Assembly (NCBI GenBank): GCA_019235415.1 | Contig: JAFAKN010000254.1 | Span: forward strand, 1-47,308 | Direction of reading: 5' to 3' | DNA: 47,308 nt | Origin: Alphaproteobacteria bacterium | GTDB lineage: Bacteria > Pseudomonadota > Alphaproteobacteria > Reyranellales > Reyranellaceae | Program-made: the position numbers and the translations under genes | Shown here: positions 1-18,014 of the stretch, one piece after another | Position numbering within the stretch: the first letter of the stretch is position 1 | How the letters are laid out: each line of letters starts with the position of its first letter | Notes under the pieces: generated by a model | Seen by the model: only the letters and a program-made list of their open reading frames with translations | Told to the model about the DNA's origin: nothing | Database searches by the model: none

Positions 1-1143
1 GAGGGAGGCGAGCGCGGCGGCGAACGAGCCGATGCCGGTGCTGCGCAACGGCACGTAGCGTTTGCCCATCTGTCGGCAGAGGCGTTTCACCAGCGTCACC
101 GCTTCGTGGCTGACGCAGTCGACCGGGAACATCACGAGGTCGGCCCGGCTCACCAGGCCGCCTAGAAGGCCGCTGCGGTCGTCGACGCCGCCGTCGTGGT
201 GCTGGAAACAGACACCGAGCCGCTCGCTGGCCGCGCGCAGATGGCCGACGCGATCGGTGCGCCCGCCGACATAGAGCAGCGACAGGCCGTCGAGCGACGC
301 CGCGGGCGTTCCTGTCTCGCGTTCAGGCGCGAGAAGCTCGGCTTCGAGCGCCTGCAGTTCCTTGCCCAGCGCCTGCTCACGGCGTCGCAATGTCTCGGTC
401 TCACGGCGCTCGCGCTGCAGCGCCTCGTTGGCGGTCGCCAGCCGCTCCTCGAGCGCGGCGCGCCGACCGGCTTCCCCGCGCAGCCGCCGTTCGAGGCTCG
501 CCACCAGGGGGGCCAGCGCCTCGTCGTCGGCCGTCGTCTCGGCGGGCTGCTCGGCGATCCGGTGCGCTAAAAGCTCGCTCAGGCCGCGGATCCGCTGGTC
601 GCGCGCGGTGATGGCGTCGCGCAGGTGGTCCTGCTGGCGCGCGAGCTTCTGCTTCAGCCGCGCGTTCTCGGCTTCGAGCTCGCTCAGCCGGCGGATGTCC
701 GCCCGGTTCGCCGCGCCGACGAGATGCGACAGCATGTGGACTTCGCCGAACACCTCGCGGACCAAGGCATCGGTGGTGGCGGGATGGGTGAGGGCCGCCC
801 AATAGCCGCCGGGGATCTCGCCCTGCTGGACGGCCTGGCGCCACAGGGCGCGGACCTCGTCGACCGTGCCGGCGGCGTCGAAGCGGGCGATCGCGGCCCG
901 GTGCCGCCGGTCGAGCGCCTTGTGCAGGAGCTTGGCGCGGCCGTCGCGCAGGCCGGCCAGCAGGACGCCTTGGCAGTGCAGGTCGTGATCGCTGCCGCCT
1001 TCGCTCAGCTTGCACTTGGCCACCAGCTGGCACAGCTCGACCGTCGAAAGACAGGTGCCCACGATCGAGCAATGCAAGTGCGACGAGAGCTCCCAGATGC
1101 GCGTGCGGCGCGCGCCGCGCGGGGCCGGCGCCGGCTCGATCAT
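1..1143 (-). CDS. DUF2325 domain protein, C-terminus cut by window edge
   Basis: I read this frame directly on the minus strand; it is open from beyond base 1 to past 1143. The N-terminal part has paired His/Cys motifs (HLHCSIVGTC near residues 21-30 and HDLHCQGV further on). The middle is a charged, coiled-coil-like stretch rich in Arg, Glu and Leu. The C-terminal part is a DUF2325 fold: LLYVGGRTDRVGHLR, then FQHHDGG, then a stretch ending in DCVSHEAVTLVKRLCRQ. The family has no established biochemical role. The start is uncertain: ATG at 1143 lacks a clear ribosome site, the frame stays open upstream, and the preceding residues (LPQLTIERLPLR) look protein-like, so a GTG at 1185 or 1242 is possible. 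It is divergent from the Mop-domain gene and shares with it a control region containing a ModE-box-like dyad, so a molybdenum-linked role is an inference from context. Confidence 0.82.
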   Translation of the reverse strand, partial: MIEPAPAPRGARRTRIWELSSHLHCSIVGTCLSTVELCQLVAKCKLSEGGSDHDLHCQGVLLAGLRDGRAKLLHKALDRRHRAAIARFDAAGTVDEVRALWRQAVQQGEIPGGYWAALTHPATTDALVREVFGEVHMLSHLVGAANRADIRRLSELEAENARLKQKLARQQDHLRDAITARDQRIRGLSELLAHRIAEQPAETTADDEALAPLVASLERRLRGEAGRRAALEERLATANEALQRERRETETLRRREQALGKELQALEAELLAPERETGTPAASLDGLSLLYVGGRTDRVGHLRAASERLGVCFQHHDGGVDDRSGLLGGLVSRADLVMFPVDCVSHEAVTLVKRLCRQMGKRYVPLRSTGIGSFAAALASL

Positions 1144-1246
1144 GCGCAGCGGCAGGCGTTCGATGGTCAGCTGAGGCAAGCCCACCGCCGCGCCGGCCCG
1201 CGGGCGCAGGGTCCAAGGATCGAGGCGAAGCGAGGCGGTCACGATA

Positions 1247-1270
1247 CGATGTATTCCATAGGATATAACG
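1247..1270. promoter_or_regulatory. ModE-box-like operator between DUF2325 and mop genes
   Basis: The core reads CGATGTATT-N6-GATATAACG, close to the ModE/Mo-box pattern CGnTATATA-N6-TATATAnCG with the same arm lengths and spacing; about three conserved positions differ. It sits inside a wider imperfect dyad (1240-1277) whose outer arms CACGAT and ATCGTG are perfect. The area is AT-rich compared with its surroundings. It lies about 105 bases before the DUF2325 ATG and 131 bases before the molbindin GTG, so it could control either gene. That it binds a ModE-type protein is inferred from the match and from the molybdenum-related neighbours. Confidence 0.5.
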
Positions 1271-1400
1271 CATCGTGTCAGACCGCGACCGCGGGGGCAA
1301 GGGCGGCCGCCACGCGCGGTTCTGCGGTTGCCAGGGAAGCCGCGGCCTGCTCCAATGGGCGCTGCATTCAGACCGATACAACGCGTGGAAGGAGCTCAGC

Positions 1401-1610
1401 GTGAAGATCAGCGCCAGGAACCGCCTCAAGGGCAGGATCGTCGAGGTCAAGAAAGGGGCGACCACCGCGCATGTCCGGCTGGACGTGAACGGCACCATCG
1501 TCACTGCCTCGATCACCAACGAGGCGGTCGACGAGCTCGGCCTCAAGGCCGGGCAGGAGGCCTACGCCATCATCAAGGCGTCCGACGTGATGATGGGCCT
1601 CGACGGCTGA
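1401..1610 (+). CDS. Molbindin: single Mop (molybdate-binding) domain protein
   Basis: This 69-residue protein is one Mop/TOBE domain: KISARNRLKGRI at the start, then VKKGATTAHVRLDV, then ASITNEAVDELGLKAGQEAYAIIKASDVMMGL. Molbindins of this length assemble into hexamers that bind several molybdate or tungstate oxyanions in the cytoplasm, buffering or delivering molybdenum for cofactor synthesis. I chose the GTG at 1401 because AAGGAG lies six bases upstream and the domain begins right there; a longer frame from 1275 would add an unlikely Arg/Gly-rich tail. It stops four bases before trmO, so the two are probably co-transcribed. A ModE-like HTH gene lies about 600 bases downstream on the other strand. 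Confidence 0.9.
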   Translation: MKISARNRLKGRIVEVKKGATTAHVRLDVNGTIVTASITNEAVDELGLKAGQEAYAIIKASDVMMGLDG

Positions 1611-1614
1611 GCCG

Positions 1615-2112
1615 ATGGTCCGCCTGAACGAGGTCCGTCCCGGCGAAGTCGCGATCGAGTTGCCGGACCGCACCGACGCCGAGATCTATTTCATCGGTCG
1701 CATCCATACGCCATGGACCGACCGGTTGACCTGTCCGCGGCAGGGCCGGCTGGATGGCCCGACTTGCCGGATCGAGGTCTTCCCGCCGTGGGACAAGGGG
1801 CTCGACAGCGTGGCGGGGCTCGAGCGGTTGGAGGTCCTCTATTGGCTGGACCAGTCGCGGCGCGACCTCGCCCTGCAAAGCCCGCGCAGCGACGGGCAGG
1901 CGCGCGGCGTGTTCTCGCTGCGCACGCCGGTGCGGCCCAACCCGATCGGCACGGCGATCGTCCAGCTCCTGAAGGTCGAGGGATCGACGCTGCTGGTGCG
2001 CGGGCTCGACTGCCTCGACGGCACGCCGCTCCTCGACCTCAAGCCCGATCGCAGCCTGTTCAAGCCCTTGGCGCCGGCGCAGGCCGGCGATTTCCAGGTC
2101 GGCGATCCTTAA
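1615..2112 (+). CDS. trmO: tRNA (t6A37) N6-methyltransferase TrmO (TsaA/YaeB family)
   Basis: TrmO uses S-adenosylmethionine to methylate N6-threonylcarbamoyladenosine at position 37 of certain tRNAs, fine-tuning codon reading. The 165-residue length fits the family's catalytic beta-barrel. Family motifs are visible: IGRIHTPW near the N-terminus, CPRQGRLDGPTCRIEVFP, the LYWLDQSRRD segment, RGVFSLRTPVRPNPIG, and GLDCLDGTPLLDLKPD near the C-terminus. The ATG follows the molbindin stop by four bases, suggesting translational coupling, although no functional link between molybdenum and this modification is known to me. A palindromic repeat follows, then the convergent ModE-like gene. Confidence 0.9.
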   Translation: MVRLNEVRPGEVAIELPDRTDAEIYFIGRIHTPWTDRLTCPRQGRLDGPTCRIEVFPPWDKGLDSVAGLERLEVLYWLDQSRRDLALQSPRSDGQARGVFSLRTPVRPNPIGTAIVQLLKVEGSTLLVRGLDCLDGTPLLDLKPDRSLFKPLAPAQAGDFQVGDP

Positions 2113-2144
2113 CACTTAGACGACCACGGGCGTCCCGCCCGCCT

Positions 2145-2213
2145 TGTCATCCCGAGCGTAGCGAGGGATCCTTCCTGTTGCCTCAAAGGTCCCTCGCTGC
2201 GTTCGGGATGACA
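2145..2213. repeat. Dispersed palindromic repeat, family A copy 1
   Basis: The element starts TGTCATCCCGAGCGTAGC and ends with the inverted copy TTCGGGATGACA, with a second inner inverted pair (GAGGGATCC and GGTCCCTC) around a short loop. It could fold into a long hairpin on either strand. Related copies are at 5482-5577 and 17924-18014. This one lies between the convergent trmO and modE-like genes and may act as a two-way terminator. Confidence 0.85.
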
Positions 2214-2234
2214 GCGGGGGCCGGGCTCCGGAAG

Positions 2235-2642
2235 TCAGTGGACTTTCGTCGCCGTCGGCAGGGCCGGGGCGAGCAGGCGGGCGAGCGAGCGCATCTCGGG
2301 CGTCGACGCGCCATAGGCGCGGCGCTCCAGCTCGCGGTAGAGGCGCACGATGTCGTTGCCGGTCTCGGTGACGACGGCGCCGCCGCCACCGCCGCCGCCG
2401 GTCTGGGCGATCACCACCGGCTCGCGGAACATGCGGTTGAGCTCGTCGATCAAGAGCCACGCCTGGCGGTAGGACATCGCCAGCGCGCGGCCGGCGGCCG
2501 AGATCGAGCCGGTCTCGTTGATCAGCTCGAGCAGGCGCACCTTGCCCGGCCCGATCGAGCGCTCGCCGCCGAAATCGATCCGCAGATGCAGCGATGTTTT
2601 AGCCGCAGGCGTTGCCGTGTGCCTGGCCTTGCCTCGTCCCAT
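2235..2642 (-). CDS. ModE-like HTH regulator lacking molybdate-binding domains
   Basis: This 135-residue protein matches the winged-helix N-terminal half of ModE, the molybdate-responsive repressor/activator. Visible are the lead-in LHLRIDFGGERSIGPGKVRLLELI, the helix-turn-helix TGSISAAGRALAMSYRQAWLLIDELN, and the glycine run before AVVTETGNDIVRLYRELE. Full-length ModE (about 260 residues) adds two Mop domains; here the protein ends after the HTH and dimer helix. HTH-only ModE proteins are known. I chose the ATG at 2642 because the sequence before it is not family-like. The separate molbindin gene nearby could supply the molybdate-sensing part, but that is inference. It is divergent from the MFS gene. 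Confidence 0.88.
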   Translation of the reverse strand: MGRGKARHTATPAAKTSLHLRIDFGGERSIGPGKVRLLELINETGSISAAGRALAMSYRQAWLLIDELNRMFREPVVIAQTGGGGGGGAVVTETGNDIVRLYRELERRAYGASTPEMRSLARLLAPALPTATKVH

Positions 2643-2867
2643 CGCCCGATTATGCGATCGAGTCCGGTGCGTTGCCAGTCGTGTCGGAACCAAGCCAAGC
2701 TGGCACAAAGGCCGGCATGGAGCCGGCCCGCTCCCGGCAGCCCGGTTGTCATCGCAGCGCGACAGGCGCAGTATGCGAGCCCTTCAGCATAAAGCAGGCG
2801 TCAGTACGAGTGGTCGGAGTATGTCCGCGTAAACCTGTACCCAATGAAAAAACGGGAGGTTTAGCAG

Positions 2868-4148
2868 ATGTCCGCGTCCGTCACGCCCAAAGCCGTGCCC
2901 TGGTGGAAGGAACCGACCAAGGACCAGTGGTACGCCTACATCGCCGCTTGGCTCGGTTGGACGCTCGATGCGTTCGACTTCACGATCTTCCTGCTGATCA
3001 TGCTGCCGATCTCCCAGGAGTTCGGCGTGCCGATCACGGCGGTTGCGATCGTCTTCACGCTCACCCTGTGGATGCGCCTGGTCGGCGCCACGGCGGCCGG
3101 ATGGATGGGCGATCGGCTGGGGCGGCGCGCGCCGCTCATGATCTCCATCCTTTGGTACTCGATCTGTAACTTCATCGCGGGCTTCTCGCCCACCTTCACC
3201 TTCCTGCTGATATTCCGTACCCTGCTGGGCATCGGCATGGGCGCGGAGTGGCCGGCCGGCGCGGCTCTCGCCATGGAATCGTGGCCGACGCGTTCGCGCG
3301 GATTCATGAGCGGCATCCTGCAAGGCTCATGGGGCCTGGGCTTCGCGCTGTCGGCGCTGGTCTACGGCACGCTCTACGATTCCCTCGGTTGGCGCGGCAT
3401 GCTGTGGATCGGCATCCTGCCGGCGCTGGTCGTGGTCTACATCCGCTTTTTCGTAAAGGAACCGCAGGTGTGGGTCGAGAACAAGCGCCAGCAGGCCGAG
3501 AAGAAGGCCGAGGTCAAGCTGCCGCTGTTCGTGATCTTCAAGCGCCAGCACCTCTACAACACGCTCACGGGCTGCGCCTGGATGGCCTCCGCCTTCTGCG
3601 TCTACTACTCGATCTGGGCGCTGTTCTCGACCTACCTGCAGAAGGAGCTGCAATGGACGCCGGCGATGGTGGCGGTGCCGCTGTTCTGGGCCAACATCGT
3701 AGTCTTCGCCGGCAACGGAATATGGGGCGTGGTCGCCGACAGGTGGGGGCGGAGGCCCGCCATTTACGTGCCGGCGCTGATCGCGATCGTCATCACGCCG
3801 CTCTATCTCTGGACCAAGGATCCGACCCTGGTGATTGGCGGCTTCATCCTCCAGGGCGTCTTCGGCGGCGCAATCTACGGACAGAATCCGAGCTATCTCT
3901 CCGAGCGCTTCCCGACCGAGGTGCGCGCCACCGCGTCGGGCTTCGTCTATCACCAGGGCGCGATCTTCGGCGGCTTCATCGCGCCCGTGCTGAGCTACTT
4001 TGCAGTGGAGCGGGGCATGGGCTTCGCCGTCCCCATGATGGTCAGCACGACCATCTTCCTGGTGCTGGTCGTCGTGTTCGTGGTGATGGGACCTGAGACC
4101 AAGGGCAAGGAGCTCACTGGCGACCTCCTGACGGTGCCTGCGGAATAG
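2868..4148 (+). CDS. MFS transporter, sialate/organic-acid symporter-like (SHS-type)
   Basis: A 426-residue inner-membrane carrier with about twelve hydrophobic segments. The major-facilitator signature GWMGDRLGRRAPL lies between helices 2 and 3 near residue 82, and a second copy-like motif VVADRWGRRPA occurs in the C-terminal half. The opening WLGWTLDAFDFTIF, with acidic residues in helix 1, is typical of the sialate:proton symporter and related lactate/aromatic-acid carriers; these import organic acids with protons. The substrate cannot be read from sequence. GGGAGG lies eight bases before the ATG. It stands alone between the ModE-like gene and the TRAP binding protein, and no catabolic genes are adjacent. 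Confidence 0.85.
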   Translation: MSASVTPKAVPWWKEPTKDQWYAYIAAWLGWTLDAFDFTIFLLIMLPISQEFGVPITAVAIVFTLTLWMRLVGATAAGWMGDRLGRRAPLMISILWYSICNFIAGFSPTFTFLLIFRTLLGIGMGAEWPAGAALAMESWPTRSRGFMSGILQGSWGLGFALSALVYGTLYDSLGWRGMLWIGILPALVVVYIRFFVKEPQVWVENKRQQAEKKAEVKLPLFVIFKRQHLYNTLTGCAWMASAFCVYYSIWALFSTYLQKELQWTPAMVAVPLFWANIVVFAGNGIWGVVADRWGRRPAIYVPALIAIVITPLYLWTKDPTLVIGGFILQGVFGGAIYGQNPSYLSERFPTEVRATASGFVYHQGAIFGGFIAPVLSYFAVERGMGFAVPMMVSTTIFLVLVVVFVVMGPETKGKELTGDLLTVPAE

Positions 4149-4350
4149 TGGAATAGAGCGGGCTGTGGTGGCGCAGGTCACTGCGCCACCGCTGGCGCGC
4201 TCCTTGCCGCGAAGCAGGATCTCCTGCGCATAAGGGAGATCCAATTCGGTCGCATTGCTGTGCGGTCCGAATGCTCTCGATGCCCCGGGGTCGCAATCGA
4301 CGGCGCCTGGAGCGCCGCCTAGAGTTCGCCGGCGCAAACAGGAGGAACAA

Positions 4351-5445
4351 ATGACCATTACCCGCCGGCGCCTTGCGCCCGCTGCTGCCGTAACGTCGTT
4401 TGCGGCGCTCGGTGCCACGGCAGCGTTCGGCCAGCAAACCAACGAAAACGTCAAGTGGCGGCTGACCGCGAGCTTCCCCAAGAGCCTCGACACGCTGTGG
4501 GGCGCGTCGACGACCATCGCGCGCGCGGTCGGCGAGATGACCGACGGCAAGTTCGTGCTGACGACGTTCGGCGCCGGCGAGATCGTGCCCGCCCTGCAGG
4601 TGCTGGATGCGGTGGCCAATGCCACGGTCGAATGCGGCCACACCTACACCGGCTACTACATCGGCAAGAACCCGGCCTTCATCTTCGATGGCTCGCTGCC
4701 GTTCGGGCTGACGCCGCGCATGCACAACGCTTGGATGATGTATGGCGACGGCCGCAAGCTGATGGACGAGATCTACGACAGCTTCGGCGTGGTCTCGCTG
4801 ACGGCCGGCCAAACCGGCGGCCAGATGTTCGGCTGGTTCCGCAAGGAGATCAAAACGCCGGCCGATTTCGTCGGGCTCAAGATGCGCACCGCAGGCTTTG
4901 GCGGCAAGGTGATGGCCAAGCTCGGCGCGGTGCCGCAGCAGATTGCCGGCGGCGACATCTATCCCGCGCTGGAGCGCGGCACCATCGATGCCTGCGAATG
5001 GGTCGGGCCCTACGACGACGAGAAGCTCGGCTTCAACAAGGTCGCCAAGTACTACTACACGCCGGGCGTGATGGAGCTCGAGGCGATCAACGTGTTGATG
5101 GTGAACAAGCAGGCCTGGGCCAGTCTGCCGCCGCGCTATCAAGCGATCCTGAAATACGCCTGCAACTACGCCATGACCGAGATGCTCGCGTCCTACGACG
5201 CCAAGAACGCCACCGCCATCGCGCGCCTGGTCGCCGCCGGCACGCAGCTCTCGGTGCTGCCCGAGGAGGTCGTCAAGGCGCTGCGCATCGCGCTCGAGCA
5301 GGTGCTCGAGGAGGAGGCGGCGCAGAGCGAGCAATTCAAGAAGATCCTGGCCAACTGGCGCGCCTTCCGCGCCGACCAGCACCGCTGGTTCTCGATCGCC
5401 GACACCCGCGCCGAGCTCGCGGTTTATCGGACGGATCGGACTTAG
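4351..5445 (+). CDS. TRAP transporter solute-binding protein (DctP/TakP-like)
   Basis: This 364-residue periplasmic protein would capture an organic acid for a TRAP transporter. It opens with a twin-arginine-style signal (TRRRLAPAAA, then a hydrophobic stretch ending around AFGQQ). The mature part has the DctP pattern: WRLTASFPKSLDTLWGA, TYTGYYIGKNPAF, LKMRTAGFGGKVMAKLGA with the conserved Arg that usually pairs with a substrate carboxylate, and GTIDACEWVGPYDD. The resemblance is to the alpha-keto-acid-binding TakP group. GGAGG lies five bases before ATG 4351; the frame extends upstream but lacks a signal there. No dctQ or dctM membrane subunits are nearby, so its partner must be encoded elsewhere. 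Confidence 0.9.
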   Translation: MTITRRRLAPAAAVTSFAALGATAAFGQQTNENVKWRLTASFPKSLDTLWGASTTIARAVGEMTDGKFVLTTFGAGEIVPALQVLDAVANATVECGHTYTGYYIGKNPAFIFDGSLPFGLTPRMHNAWMMYGDGRKLMDEIYDSFGVVSLTAGQTGGQMFGWFRKEIKTPADFVGLKMRTAGFGGKVMAKLGAVPQQIAGGDIYPALERGTIDACEWVGPYDDEKLGFNKVAKYYYTPGVMELEAINVLMVNKQAWASLPPRYQAILKYACNYAMTEMLASYDAKNATAIARLVAAGTQLSVLPEEVVKALRIALEQVLEEEAAQSEQFKKILANWRAFRADQHRWFSIADTRAELAVYRTDRT

Positions 5446-5481: not shown

Positions 5482-5577
5482 TGTCATCCCGAGGCCCCTT
5501 CGCGAAGCTCAGGGTAAACTTCAGCCGAGGGACCTTTCTTGTTGTCGTAAAGGTCCCTCGCTTCGCTCGGGATGACA
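5482..5577. repeat. Dispersed palindromic repeat, family A copy 2
   Basis: It starts TGTCATCCCGAGG and ends CGCTCGGGATGACA, with the inner pair GAGGGACCTTT and AAAGGTCCCTC. Its left arm is longer than in the other copies, carrying an extra segment around 5494-5525. It lies between the convergent dctP-like and rne genes, again at a 3'-to-3' junction. Confidence 0.85.
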
Positions 5578-5616: not shown

Positions 5617-8607
5617 CTACCGCCGCCACCAGCCGCGTTTGGGGTTGGCGGCCGGGGTGTCGATCACCGGCACGACCGGCACCACGGGCGGGGGCGGAGC
5701 CGTCGGCTCTGGGGCATCCGGCGGGATTTGCGGTGCGGCGGCCGCGACGGGTGGTGCGGGGCGCAGCGCGGGAGGCGCAGCTGGCTCCGGAGGCAGAGGC
5801 ACCTGGACCACCACTGTCGGCTCGTCGCCGAAAGGCGCCTGGTCGAGGGGTATGTGATGTTCGGCGGCGTGCTCGACAGGTTCATCCTGGACGGGCCGAT
5901 CCTGGACGGTCCCACCGCCGAGGGGCCGACCCTCGACAGGTATCGCGACGTTGACCCGCTCAGGCGACGCCTCGCCGTGGGCGTAGCCCTCCTCGTGGCC
6001 CTCCTGATGGCCCTCCTGGTGGCCCTCGTCGGGGCCGTTCTCGCGGCGACGCCGGCGGCCGCCGCGCCGGCCCCGCCGGCGACGGCCACGGTCGCCGTCA
6101 TCGCGGTCGCCCTCGCCGCGCTCCTCGCCGACGCCGTCGGCGTCGGCGTGCGGGGCCTCGCCCTCTGCCTCGCCGTCGGGCTCGCGGCCTTCATCGTCGG
6201 CCTCGCCGATAGGCTCGTCGCCGGTACGATCCTCCTCGCCCATCGCCTGCGGGCGGTCGGCGGCCTCGCCCTCGCCGTCGCGCCGGCCGCGCCGCCGCCG
6301 GCGCCGCCGGCGGCGGCGACCACCGTCGCGACCGTCGGCGTCTTCGTCCTCGCGCTCGCCCGCGTCGGCGGCATCGAAGCCGCCGGCCTCGCTCGACGCT
6401 TGCTCCTCGGCGACCTCATCGTAGCTCGCGCGCGCAGTCTCCAGGGCCGGGCGGTCGCGTTCGTCGCGGCGGCCGCGCACCCGCTCGATCTCGCAGTCGG
6501 CGGCGTGCAGCTCGCTATCGGCCTCGATCGACACCGAGAAGCCATAGCGCAGCTCGACCTCCGACAGCGTGTGGCGCTTCTGGTTCAACAGATAGAGCGC
6601 GACGTTGGGCGGCACGCTGACCACGATCTCGCTCGCCCGCTTGCGCACGCCCTCTTCCTCGACGGCGCGCAGCGCGTGCAGCGCCGCCGATTCGATGGAT
6701 CGGACGCGGCCGGTGCCGGCGCAATGCGGGCAGATCTCGGTCGAATGCTCGAGCAGGCTCGGCCGCAGCCGCTGGCGCGACAGCTCCAGCAGGCCGAAGG
6801 CGGAGATGCGGCCGATCTGGATGCGCGCCCGGTCATGGCGCATGGCATCCTTGACCTTGTGCTCGACCTGGCGCTGGTGGCGCGTCTCCTCCATGTCGAT
6901 GAAGTCGATCACGATCAGCCCGGCGAGGTCGCGCAGCCGCACCTGGCGGGCGATCTCCTCGGCCGCCTCGATATTGGTGCGCACCGCCGTTTCCTCGATG
7001 TTGCGCTCCTTGGTGGCGCGGCCCGAGTTGACGTCGATGGCGACCAGCGCCTCGGTCGGATTGATGACGATGTAGCCGCCGCTCTTCAGCTGCACGACCG
7101 GTGAGTGCATGGCGTCGAACTGGCTTTCCACCTGGTAGCGGTGGAACAACGGGATCGGCTCGCGGTAGAGCTCGACCTTGCCGGCCTGGTGCGGCACCAG
7201 CTGGCGCATGAACTCCGCGGCCGCCTGGTAGCCTGCCTCGCCCTCGACGAGCACCTGCGCGATGTCGGTGTCGTAGACGTCGCGCAGCGAGCGCTTGATG
7301 AGGTCGCCCTCCTCGTAGATCAGCGCCGGCGCCGTCGAGCGCATGGTGAGCTCGCGGATCGAATCCCACAACCGGGTCAGGTATTCGTAGTCACGCTTGA
7401 TGTCGATGGTGCTGCGCTCGAGGCCCGCGGTGCGCAGGATCACGCCCTGGCCTTGCGGCACGTCGAGCTCGCTCAGGACCTCTTTCATGCGCTTGCGGTC
7501 GGCCGGGTTGGAGATCTTGCGCGAGATGCCGCCGCCGCGGCCAGCGTTGGGCATCAGCACGCAATAGCGGCCGGCCAGCGACAGGTAGGTGGTGAGAGCC
7601 GCACCCTTGTTGCCGCGCTCCTCCTTGACGACCTGCACCAACAGGATCTGGCGGCGCTTGATGACTTCTTGGATCTTGTACTGGCGGATCGGGTTACGGC
7701 GCCGACGCTCGCGCGTCTCGCGCTGCTCGATCGCCTCGTCGCCGCCCAGGATCTCGACGACCACGTCCGCCGGCGGCGCGTCCGCGGCATCGGCCATCGC
7801 CTCGCGTTCCGGACCCTCGGGCAGAAGGTTGCCGGGAAGGTCTTTGGCAAGGTCAGTGGGCGTCGGCGGCTCGGCGAGCTCGGCGACCACATCAGCTTCC
7901 GTGGCGCCGGTCGGGATGTCGCTGGGGTCCATCGCCATCACGGCTTGCGCGTGTCCGACGGCTTCCGCAGACTCCTCGGGTTCGGTCGGCGCTTCGAGAC
8001 GCTCGCCGGCGACATCGAAGCCTCGAGGCTGGGCGCTCTGCTCGGGGCTCGTCTCCTCGTTCGGACGAGCGACATCGGCCGGCGACAGCGCGGCATCTGC
8101 GCGGGTTGCCGCCGTCGGCCCGACGGGCGGTTCGTCGCTTGGCGCGACGGCGCCTTCCTCGGCAGCGGCCTGCGGCGCAGCTTCAGGCGTAGCACCCGGC
8201 ACCGCCGACGCGTTCTCCGGCGGCGCGACAGCGGCCAGGTTCTCGGCCTTGACCTCGTCGATGTCGGTCCGATCGACCCGGGTCCGGTGCGGCTCGGGTT
8301 CCTCCTCCGCTTCCGCCTGCAGACGCTGCTGCTCGGCGATCAGCCGTTCGCGATCGGCGACCGGAATCTGATAGTAGTCCGGATGGATTTCGGAGAAGGC
8401 GAGGAACCCGTGCCGGTTGCCGCCGTACTCGACGAACGCCGCCTGCAGCGACGGTTCGATGCGAATGACCTTCGCAAGATAGATATTGCCCTTGAGGGGC
8501 TTGCGGCTCGCGGTCTCGAAGTCGAACTCCTCGAGTCGCGTTCCGTCGACCACGACCACCCGCGTTTCCTCGGGATGGCTCGCATCGATGAGCATGCGCC
8601 GTGCCAT
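5617..8607 (-). CDS. rne: Ribonuclease E
   Basis: RNase E is the essential endoribonuclease that starts mRNA decay and processes rRNA and tRNA precursors. The 996-residue protein has an S1 RNA-binding domain beginning near residue 37, interrupted by an acidic, Ala/Pro/Glu-rich insert of roughly 200 residues (about 90-300), then the catalytic DNase I-like domain. Magnesium ligands are visible at D525 (DVNSG) and D568 (DFIDM), 43 residues apart as in the E. coli enzyme. The zinc-link motif CPHC is at 626-629. The C-terminal third is low-complexity: Arg-rich blocks, a short HQEG repeat and a Pro-rich tail, as expected for a degradosome scaffold. ATG 8607 is chosen because MARRMLIDA starts the family homology and GGGAG precedes it; the open frame extends to 8736. 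Confidence 0.96.
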   Translation of the reverse strand: MARRMLIDASHPEETRVVVVDGTRLEEFDFETASRKPLKGNIYLAKVIRIEPSLQAAFVEYGGNRHGFLAFSEIHPDYYQIPVADRERLIAEQQRLQAEAEEEPEPHRTRVDRTDIDEVKAENLAAVAPPENASAVPGATPEAAPQAAAEEGAVAPSDEPPVGPTAATRADAALSPADVARPNEETSPEQSAQPRGFDVAGERLEAPTEPEESAEAVGHAQAVMAMDPSDIPTGATEADVVAELAEPPTPTDLAKDLPGNLLPEGPEREAMADAADAPPADVVVEILGGDEAIEQRETRERRRRNPIRQYKIQEVIKRRQILLVQVVKEERGNKGAALTTYLSLAGRYCVLMPNAGRGGGISRKISNPADRKRMKEVLSELDVPQGQGVILRTAGLERSTIDIKRDYEYLTRLWDSIRELTMRSTAPALIYEEGDLIKRSLRDVYDTDIAQVLVEGEAGYQAAAEFMRQLVPHQAGKVELYREPIPLFHRYQVESQFDAMHSPVVQLKSGGYIVINPTEALVAIDVNSGRATKERNIEETAVRTNIEAAEEIARQVRLRDLAGLIVIDFIDMEETRHQRQVEHKVKDAMRHDRARIQIGRISAFGLLELSRQRLRPSLLEHSTEICPHCAGTGRVRSIESAALHALRAVEEEGVRKRASEIVVSVPPNVALYLLNQKRHTLSEVELRYGFSVSIEADSELHAADCEIERVRGRRDERDRPALETARASYDEVAEEQASSEAGGFDAADAGEREDEDADGRDGGRRRRRRRRRRGRRDGEGEAADRPQAMGEEDRTGDEPIGEADDEGREPDGEAEGEAPHADADGVGEERGEGDRDDGDRGRRRRGRRGGRRRRRENGPDEGHQEGHQEGHEEGYAHGEASPERVNVAIPVEGRPLGGGTVQDRPVQDEPVEHAAEHHIPLDQAPFGDEPTVVVQVPLPPEPAAPPALRPAPPVAAAAPQIPPDAPEPTAPPPPVVPVVPVIDTPAANPKRGWWRR

Positions 8608-17923: not shown

Positions 17924-18014
17924 TGTCATCCCGAGCGTAGCACCCTGTCATCCCGAGCGTAGCGAGGGATCCTTCCTGTTGCCTTAAGGATCCCTCGCTT
18001 CGCTCCTGATGACA
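17924..18014. repeat. Dispersed palindromic repeat, family A copy 3
   Basis: The left arm TGTCATCCCGAGCGTAGC occurs twice in tandem (17924 and 17946), then the inverted pair GAGGGATCC and GGATCCCTC, then a closing arm CTGATGACA with one change from the other copies. It lies between the convergent amidohydrolase and VOC genes. The tandem arm suggests slippage or repeated insertion. Confidence 0.85.

Follow-up and report, generated by a model that had tools for sequence, protein, structure and literature searches.

In its full-length form, ModE carries a helix-turn-helix (HTH) domain and tandem Mop domains on one chain. An HTH-only form, ModE-S, which keeps the DNA-binding half without the molybdate domain, is found in Agrobacterium and Sinorhizobium, and the Agrobacterium protein reportedly answers to molybdenum-cofactor status, as Hoffmann et al. 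are said to have described in 2016. The HTH-only ModE of Desulfovibrio has the same make-up, and PMC545781 calls the way in which such proteins sense molybdenum unclear. Other described systems with a bearing on the present locus are the MolABC importer of Haemophilus (PMC4031551), the tRNA methyltransferase TrmO/YaeB (PMC4132733) and Cj1384 of Campylobacter, a DUF2325 protein of 104 amino acids with 7 Cys (PMC9426514). Here we analyzed a 47,308-nucleotide stretch of alphaproteobacterial DNA from the Reyranellaceae (hereafter the window), namely contig JAFAKN010000254.1 (C655) of assembly GCA_019235415.1 (G000), a genome of 7.6 Mb in 768 contigs. At its left end lie genes for a DUF2325 protein, the molbindin Mop, a TrmO-like protein and an HTH-only ModE, which we read, with a probability of about 0.8, as a molybdenum-homeostasis island of two divergent units under the control of this ModE.

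The DUF2325 gene and the mop-trmO genes diverge from each other, and each unit has its own putative ModE box near its start, at positions conserved in relatives (Table 1). The pattern searched, CGNTATAT-N8-ATATANCG (14 scored letters), is alike in letters and spacing to the E. coli ModE box, ATCGNTATATA-N6-TATATANCGAT, the form ahead of mop in the window being weaker, whereas the Desulfovibrio box differs from that of the window (PMC545781). With up to 3 mismatches allowed, the window contains 2 matches against 0.16 expected, and 2 or more matches occurred in 2 of 100 shuffles. One of them, at 1247-1270, precedes the assigned GTG start of DUF2325, and the other, at 1360-1383, ends 17 bp ahead of the start of mop, the usual place of the box in relatives. 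The initial annotation had recognized the former as a ModE-box-like dyad between the molbindin and DUF2325 genes, as well as the HTH half of ModE and the free-standing Mop; these three features were all recovered here, whereas the trmO gene and the second box had been overlooked.

We searched 61 genomes, 37 of them from the genus of the window (its own included, and Reyranella soli among them). A box of at least 11 letters ends 11-44 bp ahead of 12 of the 14 mop genes of the genus, that of the window included; a wider gap of 109 bp is seen in G031. Such a box also lies within 110 bp of the (mop-)trmO unit in 13 of the 14 trmO-bearing genus genomes, and the trmO genes without mop in G011:C12 and G016 are still boxed (both 11/14). 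Over 448,766 bases (the window plus 30 fetched loci), we counted 43 sites with at least 12/14 letters, where shuffles gave 0, and 55 with at least 11/14, where shuffles gave 1.7; 5 of the 30 loci had been fetched because of a pattern match and supplied 5 of the 55 sites. The better boxes of the window's own genome lie ahead of modA (contig C376), of an importer binding-protein gene (C674, 14/14 letters), of a DUF2478 gene (C435) and of DUF2325 in the window. The box at 1247 was rejected as an operator of mop, because in G004, G012, G014 and G033, where DUF2325 is away from mop, mop keeps a proximal box and another box accompanies DUF2325; by this comparison the 1247 box is better assigned to DUF2325.

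A midpoint-rooted tree of 26 DUF2325 proteins was divided by a branch with support values of 99/98, and the window's side of this branch held 19 rows (six from Reyranella, one from Hyphomicrobiaceae, one from Methylobacterium, ten from one other family and one from an unplaced metagenome-assembled genome). A box of at least 11 letters was present upstream in 18/18 testable members of this clade, G438 being in the tree but outside this count since it lacks upstream sequence, against 0/7 of the proteins outside the clade, three of these seven coming from the same genus. In 17 of the 18 members the box overlaps the estimated start or lies within 42 bp of it; in G443 it lies 428 bp upstream, ahead of a small gene that precedes DUF2325. 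The 18 boxed members do not amount to 18 independent events, since near relatives share history. The tree left out L201 (199 amino acids, boxed) and G313 (a 140-amino-acid fragment with no box of at least 11 letters in 16 kb). At 10 of 20 clade loci (the 19 tree rows and L201), no more than 4 kb separates DUF2325 from an HTH-only modE, and other clade loci stand beside modA-like genes, mop, MoeA fusions or CoxG, or precede the gene of a molybdenum-hydroxylase subunit. The boxes and these neighbors together support well the molybdenum-related role that had been suggested for DUF2325, as far as proteins of the window's clade are concerned.

This clade was found in 6/37 genus genomes. With the window protein as query, at least 8/385 genomes of the class matched, a lower bound because 4 candidates were scored per genome, as did 11/99 around G390; G074 and G299 gave weak partial matches. 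In a structure model of the protein (mean predicted local distance difference test 71), the N-domain is helical, the C-domain is of the alpha/beta type and a long coiled coil is also present; an alignment of 7 sequences shows several invariant His and Cys residues. By sequence, no solved structure matched up to an E value of 0.1, and a fold search with the model returned 1239 matches at E 10 or better, with 0 at 0.001 or better. At two of the loci, a MoeA fused to a PBP_like domain is encoded near DUF2325 (L245 5138-7090; L246 4688-6460).

Table 1. Features at the left end of the window (window coordinates).
Feature	Position	Strand	Basis
DUF2325 protein, ModE-box clade	1-1242	-	PF10087 65 bits (gathering score 33.6), tree clade, box
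ModE box assigned to DUF2325, 13/14 letters	1247-1270		pattern match
Weaker second ModE box, 11/14 letters	1360-1383		pattern match, position kept in relatives
mop, free-standing molbindin (single Mop domain), 69 amino acids	1401-1610	+	TIGR00638 84.7 bits (cut-off 55)
Single-domain TrmO/TsaA-family protein (class VIII S-adenosylmethionine [AdoMet] methyltransferase-like), 165 amino acids	1615-2112	+	PF01980 98.3 bits, TIGR00104 106.5 bits
Stretch in place of the G007 importer genes, with palindromic repeat like repetitive extragenic palindromic (REP) elements at 2143-2212	2106-2271		window vs G007 alignment
HTH-only ModE, 135 amino acids	2235-2642	-	TIGR00637 88.4 bits

In the other unit, trmO starts 5 bases past the last base of mop. 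The TrmO-like protein was found in 14/37 genus genomes, in 11 of which mop is directly upstream of it; 12 of the 37 have both Mop and TrmO, 1 Mop only, 2 TrmO only and 22 neither (Fisher p 6e-7, uncorrected for kinship). A Peripla_BP_2 binding-protein homologue follows in 10 of these 11 mop-trmO units, the window being the exception, and 7 of the units also contain a FecCD-type permease and an ATPase that complete an importer (domain calls from a Pfam run on the G004 gene set). The whole locus, importer included, is present on a single contig of R. soli (G012, also L144). The importer of the relatives resembles MolABC of Haemophilus in its FecCD-type permease, Peripla_BP_2-type binding protein and ATPase (PMC4031551), a likeness by type, but its genes are absent from this place in the window. 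Beyond the genus, among the best 80 of at least 582 confirmed alphaproteobacterial trmO loci (8 of these 80 being genus contigs used elsewhere), mop was found in 49/80 and the binding protein in 39/80, and 55/80 trmO units have a box no more than 300 bp away, against 107/4000 random positions in the same loci.

The window ModE scored 88.4 bits against TIGR00637 (E 2.5e-25), under the model cut-off of 98.5, which no match reached among the 61 genomes. It is the sole match above 75 bits in its genome, the other ModE match having 22.5 bits, and it has the HTH similarity without any Mop domain, in contrast to the full-length form. The layout had initially been read as a split ModE, in which Mop would be the molybdate-binding sensor half acting on the separate HTH protein. 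The two genes indeed both lie within 1.25 kb in the window, the 13 genus genomes with a free-standing Mop above cut-off all carry HTH-only ModE as well, and the mod cluster of Desulfovibrio encodes a Mop-bearing fusion protein apart from the HTH-only ModE of that genus (PMC545781). The expected co-occurrence was recovered in part, since 6/37 genus genomes encode clade DUF2325, Mop and HTH-only ModE together on a single contig, in a span of about 8 kb. However, HTH-only ModE above 75 bits is present in 35/37 genus genomes and free-standing Mop in 13/37, so that Mop is not a required sensor half; the 22 of 35 ModE genomes without free-standing Mop above cut-off speak against an obligate one, although most of them have a Mop domain in ModC-type frames. 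No ModE-Mop fusion appeared in the genus match lists of the ModE and Mop searches. Moreover, the genes joined to mop are trmO and importer genes, not modE, and mop has its own ModE box, as expected of a target. The sensor-half reading is thus very improbable, the split label is not the best one for a form of ModE that was already known, and Mop looks like a ModE target in an operon with trmO and importer genes. For DUF2325, the alternative is a general redox or oxidative-stress protein linked to ModE by association only. Cj1384, which has the DUF2325 domain in common with the window protein, is regulated by PerR and RacRS and is up 352-fold under violet-blue light (PMC9426514); it is much shorter than the window protein, which probably has about 422 residues and for which a helical N-domain and a coiled coil are predicted. 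The boxed DUF2325 rows nevertheless form one clade separate from the boxless ones, with many members next to modE, modA-like, mop, MoeA, CoxG or molybdenum-hydroxylase genes, and we consider a general redox role unlikely for this clade.

A further question is whether the single-domain TrmO protein could have ended up in the operon by chance and be an ordinary tRNA m6t6A37 methyltransferase. Its TIGR00104 score is above the equivalog cut-off, its closest solved structure is 3okx (RPA0152), and it shares with TrmO/YaeB, 3okx and 2nv4 the barrel domain and the AdoMet-binding residues (as listed in PMC4132733): R103 and K143 align with R82 and K122 of 2nv4, Q43 and D132 were placed by motif, and these four residues are invariant across 14 aligned sequences. 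Against ordinary TrmO activity, the protein is an N-domain only and lacks the C-terminal domain, whose DPRxxY motif is necessary in E. coli TrmO (PMC4132733), it is present in just 14/37 genus genomes, and it is linked to mop, importer genes and ModE boxes. The missing domain alone is a hint of a role other than that of TrmO, to which the operon and the boxes add weight; an ordinary TrmO seems rather doubtful, and the protein probably uses AdoMet to act on something other than tRNA A37, the target of E. coli TrmO. The lack of importer genes could in turn be an assembly artefact at a repeat, a repeated palindromic element being right at the junction and the assembly being fragmented into 768 contigs. 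The closest collinear relative, G007, aligns with the window at 10-2105 and from 2272 onward, and the 166 bases with the palindromic element in the window stand against 2,866 bases with importer genes in G007. The contig spans this junction with collinear flanks, the FecCD permease had no match in the window's genome (in a search without positive control), and the only other binding-protein match there, on C674, is 42% identical. An artefact is accordingly improbable, and we infer that the importer was once part of the ancestral operon and was lost here rather than gained elsewhere.

The mechanism that we propose for this island is the following. With ample molybdenum or cofactor, ModE would sit on both boxes, repressing DUF2325 from 1247-1270 and mop-trmO from the weaker site at 1360-1383; molybdenum scarcity would then switch on both units. 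Mop would bind and buffer molybdate, the TrmO-like protein would act as an AdoMet-using enzyme and DUF2325 would also belong to the regulon. The ancestral operon presumably encoded, in addition, a FecCD-type importer of molybdate or a chelate, since lost at the window locus. Repression at high molybdenum is suggested because the boxes sit near the starts, activation being the alternative.

Several observations weigh against this picture. The sign of regulation is not readable from sequence, and the mop gene of Rhodobacter is activated with molybdate. The 5-bp gap between the DUF2325 box and the assigned start leaves scant space for a ribosome site, the mop box of the window is weak (11/14 letters), and a promoter scan of 1150-2900 gave nothing at either ModE box. 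Within the genus, one of the 14 mop genes (G003:C23) has no box within 300 bp and one of the 14 trmO units (G005) is boxless. In the 80-locus set, a count restricted to boxes immediately ahead of mop or trmO (up to 250 bp) falls to 36/80, 28 of them with at least 12 letters, and 17/80 lack both a box and any known molybdenum neighbor. Finally, when up to 3 mismatches were allowed, the window's own genome yielded 22 matches and a reversed-pattern control 16, and a 1-mismatch site (C254) sits within an open reading frame, perhaps by chance; single weak boxes are for these reasons not to be trusted.

In the open-licence literature, papers on the ModE regulon included, which omits most subscription journals, we found no link of DUF2325 or of TrmO/YaeB/COG1720 to molybdenum. 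As far as that literature tells, the DUF2325 clade and the single-domain TrmO-like protein, likely members of the ModE regulon, are new as such, and they distinguish the probable target set here from that of the ModE-S proteins of Agrobacterium, Sinorhizobium and Desulfovibrio, for which we found no description of these targets. Part of the uncharacterized DUF2325 family and the single-domain TrmO-like proteins thereby gain a regulatory context, and the tRNA methyltransferase label may be wrong for the subgroup of single-domain proteins that score as such. A separate Mop as required partner was the obvious answer to the sensing problem of HTH-only ModE, and the genus comparison speaks against it; DUF2325, often near modE, is a testable candidate for this signaling. 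More speculatively, and with little confidence on our part, the two proteins might form an undescribed molybdenum-scarcity module, in which DUF2325, with its invariant His and Cys residues and its proximity to modE at half of the loci, would bind molybdenum or its cofactor and signal to the sensor-less ModE, or else remodel molybdoenzymes, while the TrmO-like enzyme would methylate a molybdenum-related small molecule or protein instead of tRNA.

The DUF2325 gene is truncated by the left edge of the window, with 414 codons inside. Contig C435 has an exact 147-base end overlap with this edge and probably holds the final 8 codons, for a full length of about 422 amino acids. The same contig (L105) carries the DUF2478 gene at 2177-2695 (-), with its ModE box directly upstream at 2705-2728. 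Another contig of the genome (C428, L136) has a 14/14 box at 6149-6172 near a luciferase-like monooxygenase gene. In relatives, ModE boxes were also seen by aldehyde dehydrogenase genes at L093 (10510), L092 (12835), L095 (10322, 10367 and 13799) and L248 (2534 and 4148); five genes of L092, L093 and L095 were confirmed with Pfam and those of L248 were judged by eye. Such enzymes are perhaps a molybdenum-free stand-in for aldehyde oxidase. A small family of about 120-140 amino acids is encoded near HTH-only modE (L089 9061-9489 (-), with homologues in L088, L090, L092, L093 and L261); the members scanned had no Pfam match, and ModE boxes lie close by in all five loci scanned (L088, L089, L090, L092 and L093). 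A 129-amino-acid protein of G443 matched this Reyranella family weakly (E 0.03), which led nowhere.

To the right of modE, the major facilitator superfamily (MFS) gene at 2868-4148 and the gene that follows it at 4255-5445 were discarded as regulon members, having no nearby box of at least 11 letters. The scan of 1150-2900 detected no terminator and a single promoter-like site, at 2678-2649 (-), ahead of modE. The REP-like palindromic element is also repeated at 5549-5577 and 17946-17999 of the window and on contigs C376, C428 and C435.

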